DNA of 64,000 nt, taken from Halopseudomonas xiamenensis. Lineage in GTDB: Bacteria; Pseudomonadota; Gammaproteobacteria; Pseudomonadales; Pseudomonadaceae. Both the position numbers and the translations under genes were made by a program. Below, in pieces: positions 15,849-28,780 of this stretch. Within the stretch, counting starts at the first letter, position 1; each line of letters starts with the position of its first letter. Location: NCBI RefSeq assembly GCF_014219065.1, contig NZ_JACLGO010000023.1, forward strand, positions 1-64,000, written 5' to 3'. The notes under the pieces were generated by a model. The model was not told where the DNA came from, searched no databases, and saw nothing but the letters and a program-made list of their open reading frames with translations.

Positions 15849-15919
15849 GCACCCGTAGCTCAGCTGGATAGAGTACTGCCCTCCGAAGGCAATACTCATC
15901 GACTTGAACCCCGGTGCGG
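15849..15919 (+). pseudogene. decayed partial tRNA-Arg copy
   Basis: The first 45 or so bases are almost identical to the intact tRNA-Arg(CCG) 104 bp downstream, including the D arm and the anticodon loop CTCCGAA. The 3' half diverges: the T arm lacks GGTTCGAATCC and the acceptor strand reads CCGGTGC where CGGGTGC is needed. It is unlikely to fold into a working tRNA. It looks like the leftover of duplication or of an integration and excision event at this tRNA. Confidence 0.7.
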
Positions 15920-15952: not shown

Positions 15953-16029
15953 GCACCCGTAGCTCAGCTGGATAGAGTACCGCCCTCCGAAGGCGGGGGT
16001 CACAGGTTCGAATCCTGTCGGGTGCGCCA
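15953..16029 (+). tRNA. tRNA-Arg (CCG anticodon)
   Basis: A complete 77-nt cloverleaf with encoded CCA. The acceptor GCACCCG pairs with CGGGTGC, the anticodon stem CCGCC/GGCGG carries the loop CTCCGAA (anticodon CCG), and the T arm reads ACAGGTTCGAATCCTGT. It lies at the junction between core sequence and mobile-element genes, so its 3' end is a likely integration site. Confidence 0.95.
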
Positions 16030-17192: not shown

Positions 17193-17429
17193 ATGTCACA
17201 GCTTTATCTCACTACAGAAGAACTGGCCGCCCGTATCAAATATGACGCCCGGACCATTCGTGAACGTCTGAAGGACTCAGTATTGCTGGAAGGCAAGCAT
17301 TACTTCCGCCCTTTTGGTGGCCGGAAGATTTTGTACATCTGGGAGACGATAGAGCAGGACATGCTCTGTTACTCGAACCAACAAGCTATTGGCATTCCAA
17401 TGGCTAGTGGAGGTGTCTGCCATGGGTAA
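17193..17429 (+). CDS. excisionase/AlpA-like small DNA-binding protein
   Basis: A 78-aa protein with a MerR/AlpA-type winged helix near its start (LTTEELAARIKYDARTIRERL) followed by a wing-like stretch HYFRPFGGRKILYIWETIE. Such proteins act as recombination directionality factors or regulators for adjacent integrases. It overlaps the integrase start by 8 bp and is preceded by an AGGA ribosome-binding site. The C-terminal 20 residues are unconserved in appearance and encode the overlap. Confidence 0.7.
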   Translation: MSQLYLTTEELAARIKYDARTIRERLKDSVLLEGKHYFRPFGGRKILYIWETIEQDMLCYSNQQAIGIPMASGGVCHG

Positions 17430-18606
17430 GATCGTTGCACGGCCGGAAAACAATAAGCTGTTCTTCGATTTCCGCTACAAGGGCAAACGCTGCCGCGAGC
17501 AGACCTTGCTCAGCGATACACCTGCCAACCGGCGCAAGCTTGAAGGCATCCTGAAGAAGCTCGAGGCTGAAATTACACTCGGGACGTTCGAGTACGCCAA
17601 CTATTTTCCGGACAGCCCGAATGCTGAAAAACTGGCAGTGAGCTCAGGGCATCAGCCAGCAAAGACGGTAACGCCACTCTTCAGCGAGTTCAGCGATATC
17701 TGGTTTGCGGAGATGGATATTCAGTGGCGCCGGTCCCACAGCGACACTATCGCTGGGACCCTGCGTAATTACATTCTCCCCGAGTTTGGGGAAAAAGAGG
17801 TCGGCTGCATCACAAAGGCAGAGATTCTGACATTTCGGTCCTCACTCGCCAAAGTTACGAACCGAAGTGGCAAAACTCTATCAGCGACGCGAATCAACCA
17901 TATCATGACGCCATTGCGCATGATCCTGAATGAGGCAGCCAACCGATACAATTTTAGCTCACCCTACGTGGGAATAAAATCGCTGAAAGTTCCGCGGGTA
18001 GACGTGGAGCCTTTTACTCTGGAGGAGGTCGGTAGAATCATTGCTGCAGTACGATCGGACTTCAAAAACTACTACACCGTTCGTTTTTTCACCGGCATGC
18101 GTACCTCTGAGATCGACGGTCTGCAGTGGAAATACGTCGATTTTGAACGACGCCAGATCTTGGTCCGCGAGGCGTGGGTAAAGGACGAGCTGGTGTACAC
18201 AAAAAATGACGGCTCGTTCAGAACGATCGACATGTCCGGCCCCGTGTATGAGGCACTGCTCGACCAGCGAAAAGCGACCAAACAGCACGCGTTTGTATTC
18301 TGTACCAGCAACGGCAGACCGCTATCCCACCGTAATGTGACTCAACGGATCTGGCACCCCCTGCTGCGACACCTGGGCCTGAATGTCCGTCGCCCCTATC
18401 AGACTCGCCACACTGCGGCGACGCTATGGCTGGCTGCTGGCGAGGCTCCTGAATGGATTGCCAGGCAGATGGGGCACACCACCACTGAAATGCTGTTTCG
18501 CGTGTATTCGCGCTACGTGCCGAACCTCACTCGGCGCGACGGTAGTGCGTTCGAGAATCTGTTGCTGGCTCATATGAAAACGGAGGTGCTGGATGAAACT
18601 TGTTAA
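17422..18606 (+). CDS. tyrosine recombinase integrase (Arm-binding DUF3596 type)
   Basis: A 394-aa phage-type integrase. An N-terminal arm-binding domain (ENNKLFFDFRYKGKRCREQT) precedes a SAM-like core-binding domain and the catalytic domain. The catalytic elements are TGMRTSEIDGLQW (Arg I), PYQTRHTAATLWLAAGE (Arg II, with Tyr in place of the first His, as is common in this subgroup) and ARQMGHTTTEMLFRVYSRY (His and Tyr). I chose ATG 17422 because GGAGG precedes it. It probably integrates its element at the adjacent tRNA-Arg. Confidence 0.88.
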   Translation: MGKIVARPENNKLFFDFRYKGKRCREQTLLSDTPANRRKLEGILKKLEAEITLGTFEYANYFPDSPNAEKLAVSSGHQPAKTVTPLFSEFSDIWFAEMDIQWRRSHSDTIAGTLRNYILPEFGEKEVGCITKAEILTFRSSLAKVTNRSGKTLSATRINHIMTPLRMILNEAANRYNFSSPYVGIKSLKVPRVDVEPFTLEEVGRIIAAVRSDFKNYYTVRFFTGMRTSEIDGLQWKYVDFERRQILVREAWVKDELVYTKNDGSFRTIDMSGPVYEALLDQRKATKQHAFVFCTSNGRPLSHRNVTQRIWHPLLRHLGLNVRRPYQTRHTAATLWLAAGEAPEWIARQMGHTTTEMLFRVYSRYVPNLTRRDGSAFENLLLAHMKTEVLDETC

Positions 18607-18895
18607 CTCAGGCAGTAATGTCACCACGCTGGATACCACTCTATCCCAACGCCAAGACCAGTTCCTGCACAACCTGACTTTGTCTTTGACAGCAGGTTTG
18701 GAAAACCCCTTCGGGGCCGAGCTGGTTGCCCTGATCGGTAGTGGTCATGAACGAACCAACCGAGAGGCTGTAGCCACCTGGGTCAGGTTCAGGCGTCATG
18801 AAATTTTCACTATGCGATTGGAGGGGATCAACCCGCTGGAGAGTCTCCGGGCGCAGCTCCTGACGCGGATTGAATTGGACCAGGTCTGGCAATAA
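18593..18895 (+). CDS. hypothetical protein coupled to the integrase
   Basis: A 100-aa protein without a recognised domain. It starts inside the end of the integrase gene (14-bp overlap), which indicates coupled translation. It is predicted mostly helical, with no signal peptide or membrane segment; the stretch NREAVATWVRFRRHEIFTMR is basic and could contact DNA. Position suggests an accessory factor for integration or excision, but that is inference. Confidence 0.6.
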   Translation: MKLVNSGSNVTTLDTTLSQRQDQFLHNLTLSLTAGLENPFGAELVALIGSGHERTNREAVATWVRFRRHEIFTMRLEGINPLESLRAQLLTRIELDQVWQ

Positions 18896-18923: not shown

Positions 18924-18957
18924 AAGGCTGAATCCGCGCATGCGCGGATTCAGCCTT
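18924..18957. repeat. 34-bp perfect palindrome with the island repeat core (copy 1); probable terminator
   Basis: The 20-bp core AATCCGCGCATGCGCGGATT is extended on both sides by GGCTG/CAGCC and A/T ends into a 34-bp perfect palindrome. It sits exactly between the convergent 100-aa gene and the tandem-HTH gene, where it could terminate both transcripts. The same core recurs at three more places up to 26.8 kb. Confidence 0.85.
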
Positions 18958-18962
18958 TCGTC

Positions 18963-19514
18963 CTAGCGATTCTGAAACTTGAGTCTCTTGGTTCGAATAA
19001 AGTTTGCTGACACCCCCAGGCTTGCCGCGATCTTCGCATCTGAAACCTTACCAAACAGGTCCTCGATCTCTGGCGTGATCTCTGGCATCGGTGCTTTGTA
19101 GGCTGGGATACCCAGGGCATATCGTTTTTTTCTGACCGGGAACTGGGTTGTACCCAGCACAGCCGCCACATCGGTATCAGGCATAGTACCGAGAAGGGCC
19201 AACGTCTCCTCGGTCCAAACTACTGCCAGCTCCTTAAAATTCCCGCCCCGCTCCCCCACAGGTTCTCGGATTCGTTTACTCTCCCGAACCTGTTTTATGT
19301 GTTTTTTGGGGTAATTTAGCAGCCTAGATAACCTATGGTCGGTGTGCACCCCTAATAGGGGCTCCAGCTCCGCAGGCGCGGGCTTAACTGGCGCCTTCCA
19401 AGCTGCAATGCCCAGACTTTTCCGATACCTCCTGACCGTGGTCGCCCCTACACCAAACTGGCGAGCAATTTCGCGGTCACTGATTTTTCCTACCTGTTTT
19501 TTCCAATCACACAT
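18963..19514 (-). CDS. protein of four tandem helix-turn-helix modules
   Basis: A 183-aa protein built of repeated HTH-like units of about 45 residues. The clearest units are KISDREIARQFGVGATTVRR, TMPDTDVAAVLGTTQFPVRK and KVSDAKIAASLGVSANFIRT, with a degenerate one between (HTDHRLSRLLNYPKKHIKQV). Two units end in the same GI(A/P)A(W/Y)KAP spacer, showing internal duplication. It is the last gene of the leftward recombinase operon, 125 bp after the 1040-aa gene, with a GGAGGG ribosome site. It probably binds several repeats of a DNA site. Confidence 0.7.
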   Translation of the reverse strand: MCDWKKQVGKISDREIARQFGVGATTVRRYRKSLGIAAWKAPVKPAPAELEPLLGVHTDHRLSRLLNYPKKHIKQVRESKRIREPVGERGGNFKELAVVWTEETLALLGTMPDTDVAAVLGTTQFPVRKKRYALGIPAYKAPMPEITPEIEDLFGKVSDAKIAASLGVSANFIRTKRLKFQNR

Positions 19515-19639
19515 ATAGAGAGCCCTCCTCAGGGGTTACGGCGGTTTCACCGCCACTCTCTAGATAATGGAATTCCGAAATCCCCAAATTCGGGGGTTAG
19601 GGCGCGGCTGCTGATATTCCAGGCCAGCCGCTATGAGGT

Positions 19640-22600
19640 TCAGATTCTGAAATGCCAATCGATTGAGGCCGCCAGTAGGAGATACCGCAGTCCAGATCCC
19701 GAGTGGTACGCCGCATCACCCTCCTCTGTATGCAGCGTGACCCTGATGCCCAGGCGATGATTCGTGACTGATTTGCTCTCTGGCGCCTGCTGCAAAAAGC
19801 TGGCTCTGATACCGAGCACCTTCCGCCAGTATCGCTGTGTCCGTACAGGCGTATCCTGATCGTAGGTAATCAACTCGATCTGTGAACGCTGGAAGCCAAT
19901 TGACTGCAACAGCCACAAGTAATCCTGCGCATAGACCTCATCCTGATCTCTGTAAAACCTCAGCGTCGTATCCGTCGACCAAACTCGCTCGACAAAAAAA
20001 TCTATGACCCGGTTTGCCCGCTCTCCCTCCTCGCTCTCGAGCAGTTCATATAGCCGCTGAGCGTGATCCGCCAGCATCTCTCGACCACCCGTTTTGGGAG
20101 GGCTGGGCATAAGTTGCCTATCCTGCCCGTCAGCGTGTGGGGATTTTCTCACTCGGTGGCGCTTGCCCTTTTCTCCGAGGTCTCGTATATGACGAGCCCG
20201 CTCAATCATCTGCTCTCGATCAGCCGCTGAAAACTCGAAACCGTCCAGATTGACGCTGCGACCGGTAGCCTCTGCATAGGAAACGTATGACAGCAGGGCC
20301 TCAATCCGCATGATGCGCTGTATGGCCCAGTTTCCATCAGGACGGACCTGCGCCCGCGCATTTTGGCGCTTTATCTGCCGATGCTCTTTCCTCAGCTGCC
20401 TGAGCAGTGGCACACGGCCGATAATATTCAGCATGTAATCGCGTTGAGCCGTCGCATCAGCCAAACTGCCGGTTTTTTTAGGCACAGTTACCCGACCGAG
20501 AATAGCCACATTGTGCGCCGTGAACCGCCACGCCTCAGGATTCCATTGCCAACTGGCGGCCGCCAGCATCGGCATGCTGTGGATATAATGCAGGAGAGTT
20601 GTTTTAGGGCTGACGTGCCCCAGGACCTCGCTGACATGGTGCAAAATCTTTCGGGTCGGACTACCTACAGCAGCCAGTTCGAGCCTGGGTTGGCCAGGGT
20701 TTCCGCATAGCCAGGCGCGGGTCTGCTCGAGATCGTCAAAAAACATGTCAACGGGCATCCCATATACCTGTCGCATCGTCCTCAGCAGCAGCCAGGTTGC
20801 ACAGGAGTGGCGCAAATGGTGGTAGCTCACCTCCTCGTTCCCCGTGACTGCACGCATGGCCTGATGTATTGCCGGGAGAATTGCCTCTTCACTGATCCAC
20901 TGCGTTCTGAACTCCGGTATGCAGAACAGGTACTCAGAAAATTTTTGTCTCTTCTCCTCCTCCATCCTCTCGCGATACCACGCCTTCAGGATCTCCAGCT
21001 CGTCTGGGCTCAGCAGTATGTGTACGGGCAGACGCCGCGTGGCTTTTCGAGTTTTCAGGCCGCGCTGGGCGTGAGGCCTGACGAGCAGATCCACATCCAG
21101 TTGGAGGTCATTGATTTCCTGCCCTGACAATTGTCGCTTGCCCTTATGACGGCGCCGGACCCGCTCTGCGATCTGCTCCGGTAACAGGGACACATGCAAA
21201 TCCTGTAGGCGCAGTTTCAGGGCTTCATTGCGGCGCAGCCCCAATCGGAACCCCAAAATTATAAAAACCTGCACGGCTGTGACGAGCCGGGGCGAGCGAA
21301 AGGCCAGCTTTGAGGTGGTCAGCGACTGCAGCACCTGCTGGTACTGCTCTTCGCTTAGAATTCTGGCATCAACTCGCGTGAGGCCCTTCGAAATACCCAG
21401 CTGGGAATAGGCACTGATGGGCGGCAGGCCGTGATTGCGGTGCAGGTAGTGATGAAACTCGTAGAGACCCCTAGCCGTTTTTTGGCGCCTGCTGTCAGTC
21501 GGCTGAATCTCCAGAATACCCTCGTAAATAGCCTCGAGAGCGTCGTATTCGAGTTCGAAGACTTCAAAACTATCCAACTGTGAGACCAGTCCAAGCCCCA
21601 CGAGCCTCACGTAGTTGGCGATGCTGGCACGGCCTTGGGCTTCTCCATAGGCGGAGGACCCATTAACCATATAGGCGGCCCATGCGCGCACCAGACTAAT
21701 CAGAGAATCTTGGTCGTCAGGGCCTTGAAGAGGGCTCACACTCCCGCTACGCACCTCTGTGCACAATGTCTGGACCCACTCCGGGACGTCTTCCTTAACC
21801 TTTCTACCCTTTTGGGGGTCGTCATAGGTCCCTTTCGGATCAATCTGATCAAAGCGGCCGAAGATGCTCCCCCATGAAGTCGGTCGCAGCGAGTGAGACA
21901 CAACCCCTCGGCTGGCATACTGGATCTGTAACTGGGGCAGATTAAAGTTCAACTCAAGACGGATCAGGCCCAACATATCATTAAGGCTGCGCGGCTGATC
22001 AGCCTTGGTGACATCCACATAATCCAACAGGCGGTTCACACAGTAGATGAGCGCGCCTTTGTGGTGGGAGTCGACTGCCCAGTCTTGGATTTCCTCGAGG
22101 TTCGCCGTCAGGAGCGCCATCGTTGCCGGATCAGGAAACCATTGACGGTATTCACTCTTGGTCTCTGTAACAGGCAGTGTCAGACGCACCTCAGGCACGC
22201 CTGCCATGTAGTTGATGTCTTGAGGTTTTACCTTGATCAGGGCATTGAGCTGCTCCATATCCAGCAGCCCCCCGCCGTAAGCCGCACTCAGCAGCAGAAG
22301 GCCGATTCGAGCACGTGTATCCAGACCAAAATTCAGTCGGGTGGGGTAGATCTCATGCTCCGGCAACCTCAACCCGCGTTGCAGCCCAGTAATGACTGCA
22401 TGGCTACGCCTGACCTGGTCGGGCGAATAATCAACCGGGTTGATCGGATTAGGCTGACGCTCGACTCTCAGAGCAACACGCGCCAGCGGACACTGCGGAA
22501 CATTCTGCTGGACACGAGTTGTAATCTCTCGCAGTGCGTTTCGCAGCAGGTGAGTAGACAGGCCTGCCTCAAGCGCGCGGACCTGCTCTACTGTCACACT

Positions 22601-22762
22601 TGCCAGTGGAGCCCTCCCCAAAAGCCAGTGCCCGAGATCTGATTCTGCCTCGCTGATGTGCTGTCTCAGCTCTCCGCGGGCCTTACTCCACTCCTCCTTT
22701 TCGCCAGAACGGCTGGACCACAACCACTCCACCTGCTCTTCGTTCAGTTGTGGGTACATCAT
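19640..22762 (-). CDS. very large tyrosine recombinase (1040 aa)
   Basis: The catalytic core lies in the middle third: FRLGLRRNEALKLRLQDL (Arg I), YHHLRHSCATWLLL (His-x-x-Arg) and VSEVLGHVSPKTTLLHYIHS (His and Tyr). All residues expected of an active tyrosine recombinase are therefore present. About 480 residues precede the core and about 300 follow it, which is two to three times normal integrase length. The C-terminal extension has a basic stretch KGKRHRVRKSPHADG. The start ATG overlaps the stop of the 824-aa gene. The size and gene grouping recall the large recombinases of multi-gene mobile modules (Tn554 TnpB or the gamma-mobile-trio islands), but I cannot confirm the family. Confidence 0.8.
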   Translation of the reverse strand: MMYPQLNEEQVEWLWSSRSGEKEEWSKARGELRQHISEAESDLGHWLLGRAPLASVTVEQVRALEAGLSTHLLRNALREITTRVQQNVPQCPLARVALRVERQPNPINPVDYSPDQVRRSHAVITGLQRGLRLPEHEIYPTRLNFGLDTRARIGLLLLSAAYGGGLLDMEQLNALIKVKPQDINYMAGVPEVRLTLPVTETKSEYRQWFPDPATMALLTANLEEIQDWAVDSHHKGALIYCVNRLLDYVDVTKADQPRSLNDMLGLIRLELNFNLPQLQIQYASRGVVSHSLRPTSWGSIFGRFDQIDPKGTYDDPQKGRKVKEDVPEWVQTLCTEVRSGSVSPLQGPDDQDSLISLVRAWAAYMVNGSSAYGEAQGRASIANYVRLVGLGLVSQLDSFEVFELEYDALEAIYEGILEIQPTDSRRQKTARGLYEFHHYLHRNHGLPPISAYSQLGISKGLTRVDARILSEEQYQQVLQSLTTSKLAFRSPRLVTAVQVFIILGFRLGLRRNEALKLRLQDLHVSLLPEQIAERVRRRHKGKRQLSGQEINDLQLDVDLLVRPHAQRGLKTRKATRRLPVHILLSPDELEILKAWYRERMEEEKRQKFSEYLFCIPEFRTQWISEEAILPAIHQAMRAVTGNEEVSYHHLRHSCATWLLLRTMRQVYGMPVDMFFDDLEQTRAWLCGNPGQPRLELAAVGSPTRKILHHVSEVLGHVSPKTTLLHYIHSMPMLAAASWQWNPEAWRFTAHNVAILGRVTVPKKTGSLADATAQRDYMLNIIGRVPLLRQLRKEHRQIKRQNARAQVRPDGNWAIQRIMRIEALLSYVSYAEATGRSVNLDGFEFSAADREQMIERARHIRDLGEKGKRHRVRKSPHADGQDRQLMPSPPKTGGREMLADHAQRLYELLESEEGERANRVIDFFVERVWSTDTTLRFYRDQDEVYAQDYLWLLQSIGFQRSQIELITYDQDTPVRTQRYWRKVLGIRASFLQQAPESKSVTNHRLGIRVTLHTEEGDAAYHSGSGLRYLLLAASIDWHFRI

Positions 22763-25233
22763 GCATCCCCCCAGCGTTTAGCCATCACCGACCAACCCAG
22801 TTCGCTCATGAAGGGCACGAGGTACTGGTCCAGCGTTCGCATGTACGTGGCAGGACAAAAAGTGGCAAAAGCGTCTTGCGGTTCCTCCCCCCTAAGCCAG
22901 TGCCCCATATAGGCGGACAACACTTCACCGGGACAGCCACGCTCAAATAGTTCAGTCCTTACCAACTTGCGGAAAGCGTTGACCCTGTGCGGCGTATAGC
23001 CCTCAACGAGCTGCATATGATCAAAAATGACACCTGGTCTGATTGGCTCCCGGAGAATACGATCTGCATCCAGCGACAGGAAAAACCCGTGCGTCCAGCG
23101 TTCATCCGGGTCGGACGCTAGGTACCCGGTCAGCTGACGCTCAGTTTCACGACAATGCTCCTCATAACGTCTGACCTGTTCGCGCACTATATGCGGCAGC
23201 TGAATCAGGCGACTCATATGCATATCTTCGGAACCCTTATCGGACAGGGCTCCTGCAACTAGCTGGGGGTAGAACTCATCCACCCACCGCAACGGGTTGC
23301 GAATGGCACGACAACTCGAGGCCATTAGGAACATCTGCACGGTCCACAGCGTAAAGTGGTTATGCCATCTGACCATGTCTGACAGCGAGCCCCGGGGGGA
23401 CTTGGCAATCACCTGTTTAAGTGCCTGCACATTGTTGGACACCGTTTCCGGTAACAAGCAATGGGTGGCGCCCACAGCGCCGGGCTGATCCAGAGAAACC
23501 TTTTCCGGCTCGTATGCCAGGCCTACACACGCGTAGATCTGAACCAGCAACTGCTCCAACGCTTGGACGTAGCAGGTACACAGGTGCTCTGCCGAGGGCT
23601 GTAGATAAAAACGTGGGGTATCGGCGGTGGGCGGGCAGACACCCGATAGCATTGAAGCCGCGGCAATATCTCCAGAGGTAGTCTGATAAATACGCTGGAG
23701 CAGAAAATTCCGGATTTTATGCAGGGTGTAACGGCTATCGTCCTCGCCTAATTCCCGGAGCAATTTCCGGGCCTCAGCCTCCAGAACGGAGGTCTGATAA
23801 CTGAACACTCTGTTCGATGTCCGCGGAAAGACCTTGTCCATTCCAGCGACTAAACTGCCACTACCTGCCAGATCTGGAAGCAAAACATGCTGAACAGCCT
23901 CACGGACCCCGGTCTCAACCTGCCATCGCGGGTCACCTGCCAGAGGCGGTTTGGGCACTACAACCTGAAAATACGGTTGGCCTCCAGTCACCAGCGTAAG
24001 CGGGCTATCGAACTCCTCTTCCGCCTCCGACACGGTCATTTGCGCAATGCTGATAGGCGGTTGCCCCAGCCACAGACTGATGTGGATGAAAAGAATAGCT
24101 TCCATCCTGAGCCGCACGCACAAAACATCCGGGGCTGATCTCAGGCTACGGATGCACTCCTCAAAAATATCGGAGGCCCCGAATAGCAGCCTTGCCAGCT
24201 CTGTCAGGGTGAGCTGTCCGTACGAGTACGGCAGCATCTGTCTACTGCGGACGACGTGCTCTACCACAGCCTGCTGAGAGAGAATATCGGCCACATAAGG
24301 GCGGTCAACGTCGTGATCGTCGAGCAACCAGGTTTCTATGGCGGGCACCATTTCTCCTGGAGCCAGCTCACCTAGTTCCTCACCCTCATCCCGCGTATCA
24401 GTGCGGACAATTTCATAATACCCTGGCAGTAGAAAAGGGTCCTCAGGATCGTCTACCGTATGCATTTGAGCGACATCAGGGACCGTGTGCGTAATTACCT
24501 CGGGCTGGTCAACCGTACGCCCTCCACCCCCACCACCTTTCGACCGTTTTATTGGCTCCTCACCAGCGCAGTACCTAACCAGCAGGCACAGCGTGGCAAA
24601 GTGCTTTGCTTGGATGGAGCGTGACTTTCCACGCTTAAACCGTCTGCACGCACTGACAAAACGCTGGTGACTCTCCCATATTGGTAATTCGGCGGGAATA
24701 TCCAGATAGTCTGCTGCACTGAGAAACTCTAGCGCGCGGTAGGCCTGATAACGGTGATCGGTCGAAACTGAATTCTCAGCGTTGTTCAGCGCCAGCAGCA
24801 GCTGGGCTACCAAGCGCCAATAATCTGATGCTCGTTCTTGGTCCCTGGGTTTAAGCCAGAAAGCTGCGTAGGGGAAACCAAAATCTTTAACTCCCCCACC
24901 CTTGTACTTCACTGGATTAACAGTCTCCGCCTCATCGTTTTCCACACGCTCTAAAGGCAAAAACTTAACGCCCAGAATATCCGTTACACCTGGCAAGTTT
25001 TTCAAACCAATGATCCAGCTACATGCCTCCCTTATGGCACGAGCATCGAGAGGAATGGGTAATATTTCAGGGTGCTTTTCAGCTGCATCAAAAACATTTT
25101 TAAGACCAACAACCATTCTAGGCAGTTCGATGAGATCCGGATGTGGTTCCATAATTTCAAGAACTGCCTTAACCGTATCAACAGACACTCCCAGATCGCG
25201 TGCCAGCTCAATTACCTTATGTTCCTTAGACAT
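22759..25233 (-). CDS. large recombinase-like partner protein (824 aa)
   Basis: I do not recognise a named family. Near residue 540 it has SRYTLHKIRNFLLQRIYQTT and GDIAAASMLSG, then FYLQ, which mimics the His-x-x-Arg and distal Tyr pattern of a tyrosine recombinase. A second similar stretch is near the end (YTPHRVNAFRKLVRTELFER, then AYMGHWLRG). A convincing first Arg motif is missing, so it may be a degenerate, structural partner. A run of six glycines follows residue 240. I chose ATG 25233 (AGGA upstream) over a TTG at 25272. It is the middle gene of a tightly coupled set. Confidence 0.65.
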   Translation of the reverse strand: MSKEHKVIELARDLGVSVDTVKAVLEIMEPHPDLIELPRMVVGLKNVFDAAEKHPEILPIPLDARAIREACSWIIGLKNLPGVTDILGVKFLPLERVENDEAETVNPVKYKGGGVKDFGFPYAAFWLKPRDQERASDYWRLVAQLLLALNNAENSVSTDHRYQAYRALEFLSAADYLDIPAELPIWESHQRFVSACRRFKRGKSRSIQAKHFATLCLLVRYCAGEEPIKRSKGGGGGGRTVDQPEVITHTVPDVAQMHTVDDPEDPFLLPGYYEIVRTDTRDEGEELGELAPGEMVPAIETWLLDDHDVDRPYVADILSQQAVVEHVVRSRQMLPYSYGQLTLTELARLLFGASDIFEECIRSLRSAPDVLCVRLRMEAILFIHISLWLGQPPISIAQMTVSEAEEEFDSPLTLVTGGQPYFQVVVPKPPLAGDPRWQVETGVREAVQHVLLPDLAGSGSLVAGMDKVFPRTSNRVFSYQTSVLEAEARKLLRELGEDDSRYTLHKIRNFLLQRIYQTTSGDIAAASMLSGVCPPTADTPRFYLQPSAEHLCTCYVQALEQLLVQIYACVGLAYEPEKVSLDQPGAVGATHCLLPETVSNNVQALKQVIAKSPRGSLSDMVRWHNHFTLWTVQMFLMASSCRAIRNPLRWVDEFYPQLVAGALSDKGSEDMHMSRLIQLPHIVREQVRRYEEHCRETERQLTGYLASDPDERWTHGFFLSLDADRILREPIRPGVIFDHMQLVEGYTPHRVNAFRKLVRTELFERGCPGEVLSAYMGHWLRGEEPQDAFATFCPATYMRTLDQYLVPFMSELGWSVMAKRWGDA

Positions 25234-25237
25234 TGTT

Positions 25238-25714
25238 TCAGTCCTTTTTTCCCTTTTCAGGCTTAACCCCAAGTAGCCGGCAAAAACGAGAATAGCTCTT
25301 GTATTCGTTAGGCCAATTATCAGAATTAATTTTCAAATAATCAAAAAGCAATCTCGCCACAAGCGATCCCGATTTATACAAACCCGGGCAAAAGCATCGT
25401 TCTCCAAAAAACAACTCCCGACCCAAATTTATACTTGCTGGTGAATCCTCAACCAAACACCAAACCTTTGTATCGCCTCTCAAATGCGTCTTCATCCAGC
25501 GATACAAGCCAATCTGGAAAGTGCAGACATAATCTCCCCCAGCCTTTTTCATAACACTTATGGGGATCCTCTCGCTGAACATGCTTATTCGGCTGAGCGA
25601 GATCAGCTCCTTCTCCGGAAGATGCACGGGCTCTAGGTCCAGTTCGTATTCCACCTGCTTAAACGCCTCATGAATCCCAACAATTTTCTGCAATTCTATT
25701 TTCTGATACTGCAC
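25238..25714 (-). CDS. hypothetical 158-aa protein, first gene of the recombinase operon
   Basis: The gene starts with GTG behind a good AGGAG site and ends 4 bp before the ATG of the 824-aa gene, so the three genes form one transcript. The protein has no recognised domain, no signal peptide and no membrane helix. Its middle holds an aromatic and basic stretch (TFQIGLYRWMKTHLRGDTKV) and it contains several Cys (CFCPGLYKSG). Small first genes of this kind accompany recombinase sets and may act as DNA-binding adaptors; this is inference from position. Confidence 0.65.
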   Translation of the reverse strand: MQYQKIELQKIVGIHEAFKQVEYELDLEPVHLPEKELISLSRISMFSERIPISVMKKAGGDYVCTFQIGLYRWMKTHLRGDTKVWCLVEDSPASINLGRELFFGERCFCPGLYKSGSLVARLLFDYLKINSDNWPNEYKSYSRFCRLLGVKPEKGKKD

Positions 25715-25940: not shown

Positions 25941-25962
25941 AAATCCGCGCATGCGCGGATTT
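25941..25962. repeat. island palindrome copy 2 (22 bp)
   Basis: The core AATCCGCGCATGCGCGGATT with one extra A/T pair on each side gives a perfect 22-bp palindrome. Confidence 0.85.
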
Positions 25963-26085: not shown

Positions 26086-26121
26086 CAACACTAAATCCGC
26101 GCATGCGCGGATTTAGTGTTG
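26086..26121. repeat. island palindrome copy 3 (36 bp)
   Basis: The same core is extended by CAACACTA / TAGTGTTG arms into a perfect 36-bp palindrome. A degenerate half copy (CTCATGCGCGGATT) follows at about 26165-26178. Confidence 0.85.
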
Positions 26122-26757: not shown

Positions 26758-26777
26758 AATCCGCGCATTCGCGGATT
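26758..26777. repeat. island palindrome copy 4 (imperfect)
   Basis: The sequence AATCCGCGCATTCGCGGATT differs by one base from the perfect core. It lies 64 bp past the end of the truncated umuC gene and could terminate it. Confidence 0.75.
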
Positions 26778-26840: not shown

Positions 26841-28004
26841 CTAACCGCAGTTCACTTTCCACAGCCCTTTCCAGTCTGTGGTGTATCGCGGGCTCAATAA
26901 CTCCCTACGCATGCCCCATTCAGGCTCTGCTGGCACTCGCGCCAGTCGCAATGTTCCCCTTCCCCACCGTGAATTGATCTGGTCCAGCACCCCCATCACC
27001 CGCCCGGTTGTTTCCGGCTGTACCGGAGCAAATAGGTCACCTGTGAACTCCCCGCGTTGCCGCAGATCCATCAGCAGGATTTCGGCTTTGGCGTAGGCGT
27101 AGCCGGTGCGGTAAATCGCATCCAGTCCCTCGCTGGCAGCCTTGATGACCAACCGGGTATCGTCAGTAGGAAACGGCAGCGCACAGACAACCCCCTTGGC
27201 ATATTTAGCTTCATCCGGGTTGAACATGCCGGTGCGAATCCCCACCCTGACCTGCCCGCACAGAGAGCCTTGGGCACGCAGCTTCTCACAAGCCCGGGTG
27301 GCATAGGTGGCCAGTGCCTCACGGATCGAGTCCTTATCATGCAGGCGCTGGCCGAAGGCACGACTGCAGCATATTTCCTGCTTTGTTACGAATTCATCCT
27401 CTAGCTCCAGACACGGTACTCCCCGGAGCTCGCGAGCTGTCCTCTCAATCACAACGCTATGTTTTTTGCGCAGCGTCCAAGCGTCCGCATGAGCCAGATC
27501 CCACGCTGTCTTGATCCCCATAAGACCGAGGTGCTCCTTCATACGCCGGCCTACACCCCAAACCTCATCCACCGGCATCCGTTTCAGCAACCAGGCGCGC
27601 TTGTGTTGGGAATCCAGATTCACAACCCCGCCGGTATGTTGCTGCCACTTTTTTGCAGCCGCATTGGCCAGCTTGGCCAAGGTTTTGGTGGGCGCGATTC
27701 CAATGCCGGTGGGTATACCGGTCTGTTTCAGAACCTGAGCGCGGATCTCCCGTGCCAGCGTCTCGGGCGCGGCAATGCCCGTCAGATCAGAGAATGCCTC
27801 GTCGATGCTGTATACCTCAAGCGCCGGCACCAGGCTTTCTATCACCGTCATCACGCGCTGGCTTATGTCTCCGTACAGGGCATAGTTGGAGCTGAACGCG
27901 ACAATACCGTTGCGCCGCAGTACCTCACGGACCTTGTGATAGGGCTCGCCCATTTTCACGAAGGGCTTTGCATCGGCACTGCGCGCAATGACACAACCAT
28001 CGTT
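26841..28004 (-). pseudogene. umuC: umuC/rulB DNA polymerase V subunit, N-terminally truncated
   Basis: The protein reads through NDGCVIARSADAK, the palm residues YSIDEAFSDLTG, the helix-hairpin-helix region VWGVGRRMKEHLGLMGI and the little-finger domain to a normal UmuC C-terminus (WGMRRELLSPRYTTDW). About 40 N-terminal residues, including the first catalytic Asp of the DCNxFY motif, are missing. Homology stops near 28004 and an in-frame TAA follows at 28026-28028. No umuD/rulA partner is present upstream. Translation could start at the internal GTG 27959, but the product would lack the catalytic N-terminus. Confidence 0.85.
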
Positions 28005-28363: not shown

Positions 28364-28780
28364 TCACCGACACTCCCGGCCTTCTCCGCACCCTGGAGCG
28401 CCAAGGTACTTTCGGCCGGCCAGGCGCTCGGGCAGCCAGATGAGCAAGGGTGCCGCCCCCAGTGCCAGCAATAGCCACAGTCTGGAGAACTGCTCGCCAT
28501 GCGGGTCGAAGCCATAAGCCAGCAGCCCGCCGAGCGCGAGCAACAGGAAGTACGGCGCCGTGAGGTAGCAGTGAAGTCGGCGGCAGCGTGCGGCATTGAC
28601 CAGGCAGGCGCCACCCATCACCGCCAGCGCGGCGCTTGCGGCCAGGAATAGCGTGGGGTGTCGATCTGCCAGAAGAATGGTTAGCGTCGCGACAACGGCA
28701 GGCAGCCCCCAGAAGCTGATCACCTGCCATGTCTGGCGCAGGCTGTCACCCCTGCCGAGTTCATTAGTCTTAATGTTCAT
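28364..28780 (-). CDS. mer-associated inner membrane protein
   Basis: A 138-aa protein with about four transmembrane helices (for example FWGLPAVVATLTILLADRH and FLAASAALAVMGGACLVNAA). Proteins of this look follow merA in several Pseudomonas mer operons, but their function is not established. The Cys residues (ACLVNAARCRRLHC) could bind a metal; that is speculation. It lies 18 bp after merA on the same strand and is the last gene of the operon. I preferred the ATG at 28780 to one at 28795. Confidence 0.65.
   Translation of the reverse strand: MNIKTNELGRGDSLRQTWQVISFWGLPAVVATLTILLADRHPTLFLAASAALAVMGGACLVNAARCRRLHCYLTAPYFLLLALGGLLAYGFDPHGEQFSRLWLLLALGAAPLLIWLPERLAGRKYLGAPGCGEGRECR

Follow-up and report, generated by a model that had tools for sequence, protein, structure and literature searches.

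Gamma-mobile-trio (GMT) islands carry GmtX, GmtY and GmtZ, a trio that contains a tyrosine recombinase (YR). Strand-biased circularizing integrative elements (SEs) of Gammaproteobacteria carry the genes intA-tfp-intB-srap and, in the portions of the published account drawn on here, are marked by the lack of an empty site after recombination, by strand bias and by a 6-bp footprint (PMC10214605). GInt islands carry ginABCD, and the sections of their description used here report all four genes as essential (PMC5385486). We analysed a 64,000-nucleotide stretch of Halopseudomonas xiamenensis (assembly GCF_014219065.1, contig NZ_JACLGO010000023.1, positions 1–64,000; hereafter the window), which contains an operon of three genes encoding a 158-aa small protein, an 824-aa partner and a 1040-aa recombinase (the trio). 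This operon is probably the specialised half of an integration and excision system of large tRNA-targeting genomic islands, acting with a phage-type integrase. The evidence comprises homology, gene fusion, catalytic residues, end positions in relatives and co-occurrence with the integrase, from which we infer that the islands actually move and that the window copy behaves like its relatives.

The three-gene operon and its proteins

A preliminary description of the locus had reported four leftward open reading frames (ORFs) of 158, 824, 1040 and 183 aa, all of which were recovered where it had placed them. Of these, three form a tight operon, while the 183-aa gene, which encodes a helix-turn-helix (HTH) protein, is a neighbour outside the core.

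25238–25714, minus strand: small first gene of the trio, 158 aa, of no known family (ORF list, NCBIfam and Pfam scans, orthologues)
22759–25233, minus strand: partner, 824 aa, with two tandem tyrosine-recombinase-like folds, F789 at the nucleophile position and N752 at the first catalytic His (model, alignment)
19640–22762, minus strand: large tyrosine recombinase, 1040 aa, with a core-binding and catalytic region at about 373–747 and long extra ends (Pfam, model, alignment)

The close packing of these genes was likewise as first described, with a 4-bp gap between the 158 and 824 genes and a 4-bp overlap between the 824 and 1040 genes; an alternative TTG start at 25272 would extend the partner to 837 aa. 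The original four-gene unit therefore stands as a 158-824-1040 operon, and the 183-aa gene is not considered part of the core because its position and strand vary among relatives and it was not found at some loci.

The 1040-aa protein, alone among the four, passed a curated Pfam cut-off (Phage_integrase, E 1.6e-10, residues 469–659). In an alignment of 46 recombinase rows (close copies counted, one sequence twice), 40 had a letter at each catalytic position, and in all 40 the residues R510, K570, R576, R651, H652, H716 and Y726 were invariant, with position H648 occupied by His in 35, Tyr in 4 and Gly in 1. The complete recombinase set reported earlier is thus upheld, and the R-K-H-R-H-Y residues together with the catalytic fold that mark the tyrosine recombinase superfamily are present. 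The predicted model places the core-binding and catalytic region at about 373–747 (Z up to 14.7) with a mean pLDDT of only 56. Judged by its residues, the protein is an active-looking YR. An additional N-terminal YR-like fold was considered and was unsupported by the fold search, which barely probed that part.

The 824-aa partner had been said to carry imitation motifs at two places, and structure prediction, proposed at that stage as a check for a recombinase fold, gave a model (mean pLDDT 68.5) with two separate YR-like regions. The first (about 332–565) matched a mycobacteriophage integrase (Z 12.2, 159 residues, 3.4 Å) and the second (about 589–813) an archaeal Xer (Z 13.0, 171 residues, 3.5 Å), bearing in mind the tool's warning that Z scores under ~13 may mean merely a common helical arrangement. 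All 50 listed rows of the fold search were YRs or type IB topoisomerases, and Foldseek returned nothing under E 0.001, its top ten rows nonetheless being YRs. Since the partner domains and the recombinase domain showed no significant match in a profile-profile comparison (probability under 3%), the YR-fold assignment rests on the predicted model and on a Vibrio partner with a Pfam match (E 2e-4, 21.5 of 27.1 bits) short of the curated cut-off.

Across 35 partner sequences (close copies included; L107, L114, L117 and Acinetobacter L126–L132 excluded; L and G numbers denote loci and genomes, respectively), R642, K666, R675, R755 and H778 of the second domain were conserved throughout, and position 752, the first His in YRs, was Asn in 32. 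The nucleophile position was variable (Tyr 14, Phe 8, Thr 5, His 4, and one each of Lys, Ala, Asn and gap), being Phe in the window copy and in its 98% identical twin L022 (H. formosensis, G025), and Tyr in seven window-type orthologues from outside Halopseudomonas. Some partners have a further tyrosine a few residues downstream (Y797 in the window, by eye), which could be an alternative nucleophile. On sequence grounds, the proposal of a catalytically dead partner fits the window copy and more than half of the family; the rest is uncertain. The partner might form a built-in non-cutting half of the recombination synapse, such that one strand is exchanged and replication completes the process by a copy-out route, a suggestion we regard as rather doubtful. 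It would explain invariant phosphate-gripping residues beside a varying nucleophile, and it is weakened by the 14 of 35 copies that retain the tyrosine. If true, the non-cutting partner would be a defined protein cause for a copy-out route like that proposed for SEs.

At the thresholds used, the 158- and 824-aa proteins matched nothing in NCBIfam, PHROGs or PADLOC, and in Pfam they gave one match at E 0.08, far under the cut-off. Orthologues of the 158-aa protein share 68% identity in L022 and 32–35% in L092–L097. Where the genes are complete and unfused, in same-genus, plasmid and genome-collection loci, the usual order on one strand is a small gene (~150–240 aa), partner (~740–910 aa) and recombinase (~730–1140 aa). 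All three genes are whole in L093 and L094; L092 has an interrupted partner, L095–L097 have a truncated recombinase, and L090 has the 824-1040 pair, its small gene not being recognised. Chance is excluded as the origin of the trio because orthologues at 45–50% identity retain the gene order.

Distribution and insertion sites of the trio

A class-wide survey of 369 sampled genomes (one genome per species in the whole-genome sample) located the partner at 13 places, spread over 12 genomes, and the recombinase at 9 places in 8 genomes. Partner and recombinase adjoin or are fused at 11 of the 13 partner places, with the recombinase directly downstream at 8 (one of these partly visible at a contig edge) and fusions of 1278, 1762 or 1825 aa at 3 (L116, L117, L122); the two remaining places are too close to a contig start to be judged (532 bp in G066, 303 bp in G307). 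Conversely, the partner is present at all 9 recombinase places, in G215 at a weaker score only. Beyond the survey, a 1763-aa fusion occurs in Rheinheimera (L101), and in Halopseudomonas L030 and L031 the last domain of the partner is fused to the recombinase. Such a survey of gene cohesion had been suggested when the locus was first described. The original view of a mobility-type module, in which a large YR is accompanied by a degenerate YR-like partner and by a small protein, is supported, with partner and recombinase remaining together or fused. The small-gene profile matches many loci, with the gene unrecognised in L090 and in most class-survey loci.

Relatives of the trio were also found on Acinetobacter and Vibrio plasmids, with a partial copy in Sphingobium; one scan of viral contigs with the window recombinase as query gave no relative. 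On the Acinetobacter plasmids (L004, L126–L133) the trio forms a unit of ~6.2 kb that has the same left end, GTAATAAC, in three contexts. A smaller set led by the small gene (164–185, 635–664 and 656–678 aa) was observed in L032 and L033, where the recombinase was matched by profile while the partner and small protein were unmatched. A non-exhaustive literature search of titles and abstracts, limited to open-licence sources, retrieved no description of this trio.

Comparison of related loci located the ends of several elements. L027, L028 and L029 share 6.39 kb (89–95%) with unrelated flanks at the element ends, and their trio side leads into a displaced 3' part of tRNA-Asp(GTC), from position 29. 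Similarly, L024 and L025 share 6.36 kb (97%) at unrelated sites, with the trio side leading into a displaced 3' part of tRNA-Arg(CCG), from position 25, and an internal gap in L024. L107 adjoins a tRNA-Arg 3' part, L100 (Denitrificimonas) a 5' half and L023 a 17-nt core piece. A tRNA-derived junction thus lies 0.2–0.5 kb from the first gene at 7 of 12 Halopseudomonas trio loci (L023–L025, L027–L029, L107) and in L100, and the displaced pieces derive from tRNA-Arg or tRNA-Asp genes that are interrupted in the anticodon stem-loop. The same search found no such junction in the window, L022, L026, L030 or L031. At L023, the end arms of two elements meet around a 7-bp core, GAGTATTGCC-TTCGGAG-GGCAGTGTCGCC, an arrangement that a circle joint or a tandem insertion would be expected to produce.

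Tracts bounded on one contig by tRNA pieces of matching orientation span 122 kb in G026, 71 kb in G007 and 77 kb in G010, each with the trio at one end, and ~57 kb in G020, with the trio inside and a further tRNA-Arg in between. We infer that paired pieces are the ends of one element, and the tracts may hold several nested elements. A search for tRNA-Asp 5' halves instead yielded intact genes, seven in three genomes, so that one end of such an island seems to be marked by a whole tRNA and the opposite end by a displaced 3' part. An element end proposed in the window at CTCCGAAGG (26799) was dropped, with three window matches against 0.54 expected and two of them tRNA copies. In addition, a common left boundary with a motif like TTTCCCARTCTGGGA was observed in L090 (632), L093 (3315), L094 (625) and L095 (3713); it is possibly the left end of the window-type element, and a search of the window for it was negative.

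The window itself carries tRNA-Arg sequences, as follows.

15849–15891, plus strand: 5' half of tRNA-Arg(CCG), cut in the anticodon stem-loop and joined to an element-like arm, GGCAATACTCA
15953–16029, plus strand: complete second (spare) tRNA-Arg(CCG), ~60 bp past the 5' half

An arrangement of this kind is present in 11 of 28 same-genus genomes (G000–G027), ten of them besides that of the window, with G009 having a 17-nt piece instead of the half, and a similar one is found in Stutzerimonas L091 and Azotobacter L092. G001, G007 and G011 have a single intact tRNA-Arg gene, and the other 14 of the 28 were judged by match lengths only. The spare gene would be consistent with an island end that supplies a complete replacement, and follows the trio only loosely (7 genomes with both, p = 0.02). 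These observations bear on the accumulation of large islands in the anticodon loop of a presumably needed tRNA gene, where a spare tRNA-Arg apparently sits next to the junction. In G000 and G006, a gene near a displaced tRNA-Arg 3' part encodes a 1702-aa protein (L102 4747–9855; L103 11055–16163), which was considered as a fused trio and rejected, being a STAND-like ATPase by weak Pfam matches; it is perhaps another element type using the same anticodon loop.

The linked integrase and competing explanations

Close to the tRNA sequences of the window lies a phage-type integrase.

17389–18606, plus strand: phage-type integrase, 405 aa, which includes an arm-binding domain and shows a statistical link to the trio (Pfam, co-occurrence)

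The preliminary description had treated the trio as distinct from this integrase, a separation that the co-occurrence data do not support. Among 37 Halopseudomonas genomes (homologue threshold E 1e-50 or better, relatedness uncorrected), 11 have the partner, 10 the integrase and 9 both (hypergeometric p = 4e-6); two have the trio only (G009, a metagenome assembly, 99% complete, and G019, 79% complete), and the integrase occurs without the trio in 1 of the 26 trio-less genomes. Restricting the comparison to the 33 genomes at least 90% complete gave 9 with the partner, 9 with the integrase and 8 with both (p = 6e-6). An in-frame stop interrupts the integrase in 2 of 10 genomes (G026, G012). A second integrase type, 53–54% identical to that of the window, accompanies the tRNA-Asp trio in G007 and G010, and in G015 the two integrase types and the two trios are all present, distributed over separate contigs. 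In distant relatives the integrase lies beside the trio (L090–L094, L119, L121) or 3.3 kb off (L101). The integrase family retains at least 53% identity while the adjacent recombinases fall to 19–24%, indicating that the two parts are not evolving in step.

Taken together, a division of labour can be proposed in which the 1040-aa protein would be the cutting recombinase and the 824-aa protein, a double YR-like subunit, would serve as its obligate partner and, in the window copy, would probably grip the recombination core without cleaving it. The two would form one complex, with the small protein as a putative assembly or regulatory factor. Most likely the trio and the phage-type integrase of its island act jointly, just as SEs and GInts pair active YRs with a non-catalytic YR-fold protein; the integrase would set the target and the trio would complete or bias the exchange.

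Several observations weigh against this proposal. For the window copy and its twin L022, neither a recognised tRNA end nor the element's own termini could be located, and the analysis turned up neither an excised circle nor a before/after pair for a single insertion. The trio is present in G009 without an integrase homologue at E 1e-50, despite a 99% completeness rating. G024 (91% complete) encodes the integrase, yet its genome contains no partner, and the 19 kb read around the integrase contain no trio. Distances between integrases agree only in part with those between recombinases (Mantel p 0.004 over 13 loci and 0.07 over 8 loci after thinning). Nine of 234 matching Acinetobacter plasmid records were examined, of which eight are without this kind of integrase in the stretch and the ninth (L133) has a different integrase, 19% identical.

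These points recur among the alternatives. That the integrase alone moves the islands, with the trio a passenger or accessory that, for example, stacks, resolves or excludes islands at the same tRNA, is a possible reading that we think unlikely. It agrees with the short distance, 0.5–2.8 kb, that separates integrase and tRNA in the window, L091, L092 and G007, with short direct repeats resembling arm sites beside the tRNA (by eye), with the internal position of the trio in the window and with the occurrence of the integrase without the trio in G024. However, the trio adjoins tRNA pieces in G009, and also in G026, whose sole integrase is the one with an in-frame stop (similar G015 has two, on other contigs), and the Acinetobacter units share their left end in three contexts with no nearby integrase of this family in the nine records. 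The same constant left end and ~6.2-kb size would equally suit a self-contained transposon that needs no other recombinase, its link to the integrase reflecting shared islands only, as would the Vibrio and Denitrificimonas copies without an integrase in the fetched stretch. We consider this improbable in view of the genome-level co-occurrence with one integrase family in Halopseudomonas and the proximity of the integrase in L090–L094, L101, L119 and L121.

A regulator or defence module, in which the YR folds serve as DNA-binding repressors, would account for the YR-fold regulators MrpR, YopR and SroF among the fold-search matches of the 1040-aa model and for the restriction-modification genes carried as cargo near some copies. 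In the other direction, every one of the 40 rows of the 1040-aa family with a letter at these positions retains R, K, R, H and Y, none of the three window proteins matched a defence model at E 0.01, and we regard this explanation as very improbable.

Neighbouring features and known systems

Additional features of the window surround the trio and the integrase.

18963–19514, minus strand: 183-aa HTH protein, an associated neighbour of variable strand and position (Pfam, phrog_323)
18924–18957, no strand: 34-bp perfect palindrome, core CCGCGCATGCGCGG (sequence search)
25941–25962, no strand: palindrome copy upstream of the 158-aa gene (sequence search)
26086–26121, no strand: 36-bp perfect palindrome copy (sequence search)
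26758–26777, no strand: palindrome copy with one mismatch (sequence search)
17193–17429, plus strand: 78-aa ORF before the integrase, excisionase/AlpA-like (by eye, inspection only)
18593–18895, plus strand: 100-aa ORF after the integrase, with similar ORFs in L090, L093, L094 and L101 (ORF comparison)

The 183-aa protein has HTH matches near its start, under Pfam cut-offs, and resembles the D5-like regulator phrog_323 (E 2e-6, residues 7–179). Its gene follows the trio in the window, at a distance of 125 bp, and in L022; in L093, L094, L095 and L097 it is located upstream of the trio, on the opposite strand. A search for it in L090, L092 and L096 was negative, the L091 record being without the upstream part. 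The CCGCGCATGCGCGG palindrome lies near the 183-aa gene or the small gene, with three exact copies in the window and exact copies in L022, L090, L093, L094 and L095; none was found in L091, L092, L096 and L097. With up to one mismatch, the 20-bp palindrome occurs at four places in the whole 4.28-Mb genome, all at this locus, and our guess is that it is a putative binding site of the HTH protein or the recombinase.

Restriction-modification cargo and a sigma-54-type regulator gene were observed beside the integrase in L090, L093, L094 and L143, the cargo being identified by Pfam in L093 and by sequence starts and size in the other three. In the window, a UmuC-like gene (26841–27959) is without ~48 N-terminal residues of the model, and in L022 it is listed as a 99-aa last part only. 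Metal-resistance-like cargo (mercuric reductase-like, MerR-like, copper and RND-efflux-like) was recognised at 28364–61000 by eye from ORF translations.

Membership of two known systems had been left open in the preliminary description. GMT is not indicated, as no Gmt model was matched in an NCBIfam scan with E up to 1 (accession numbers for GmtX and GmtZ being unconfirmed). The GmtY model (NF040693) comprises 441 positions against 1040 aa for the trio recombinase, and matched only elsewhere in the genome, at 19.8 bits against a cut-off of 340. Tn554 resembles the locus as a multi-YR element with a small protein; however, its TnpA and TnpB are both active RHRY recombinases and the element, in the part of the account considered here, has no Tfp counterpart (PMC10214605), whereas the window partner lacks the Tyr, and membership is not supported. 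The RIT elements are likewise a trio of YR-related genes, but the archetype in that account has three YRs of 315–410 aa, all with the catalytic Tyr (PMC10214605), compared with 158, 824 and 1040 aa here.

SEs and GInts are closer, and were set apart by their published descriptions (gene number, order, size and target). As far as the SE account extends, the trio shares with SEs a large active YR, a YR-fold protein from which the catalytic set is missing, and a small protein, encoded by coupled genes at the element end (PMC10214605); the second of these is seen in the two model domains of the partner, the missing Tyr of the window copy and N752 in place of His. In the SE operon as described there, two active YRs flank tfp and srap comes last, whereas the trio has one RHRY recombinase and the small gene first. 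Again unlike the SEs of that description, the ordinary integrase lies outside the operon, and relatives target tRNA anticodon stem-loops. By annotation, 150 of the 204 kb of pAQU1 contained two single recombinases and no four-gene set. With GInts, according to the sections used here, the trio shares a terminal operon, cargo that starts immediately behind its last gene and one catalytically incomplete YR-like member (PMC5385486). GInts differ in having three YR-type genes followed by a small gene, instead of the small-partner-recombinase order, and the pseudomonad GInts described there enter an ABC-transporter gene, whereas trio relatives target tRNA (PMC5385486).

If the integrase is counted, the trio would comprise the same four protein kinds as SEs and GInts and, by analogy, may work like them as far as the parts list goes. 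Why several element types carry a recombinase-like protein seemingly unable to cut becomes testable with the trio. By gene number, order, size and target, the trio appears, against the descriptions of SEs and GInts, as a separate and undescribed family beside them, and this unnamed family, with its partner in 12 of 369 class genomes, joins the few multi-recombinase integrative systems.

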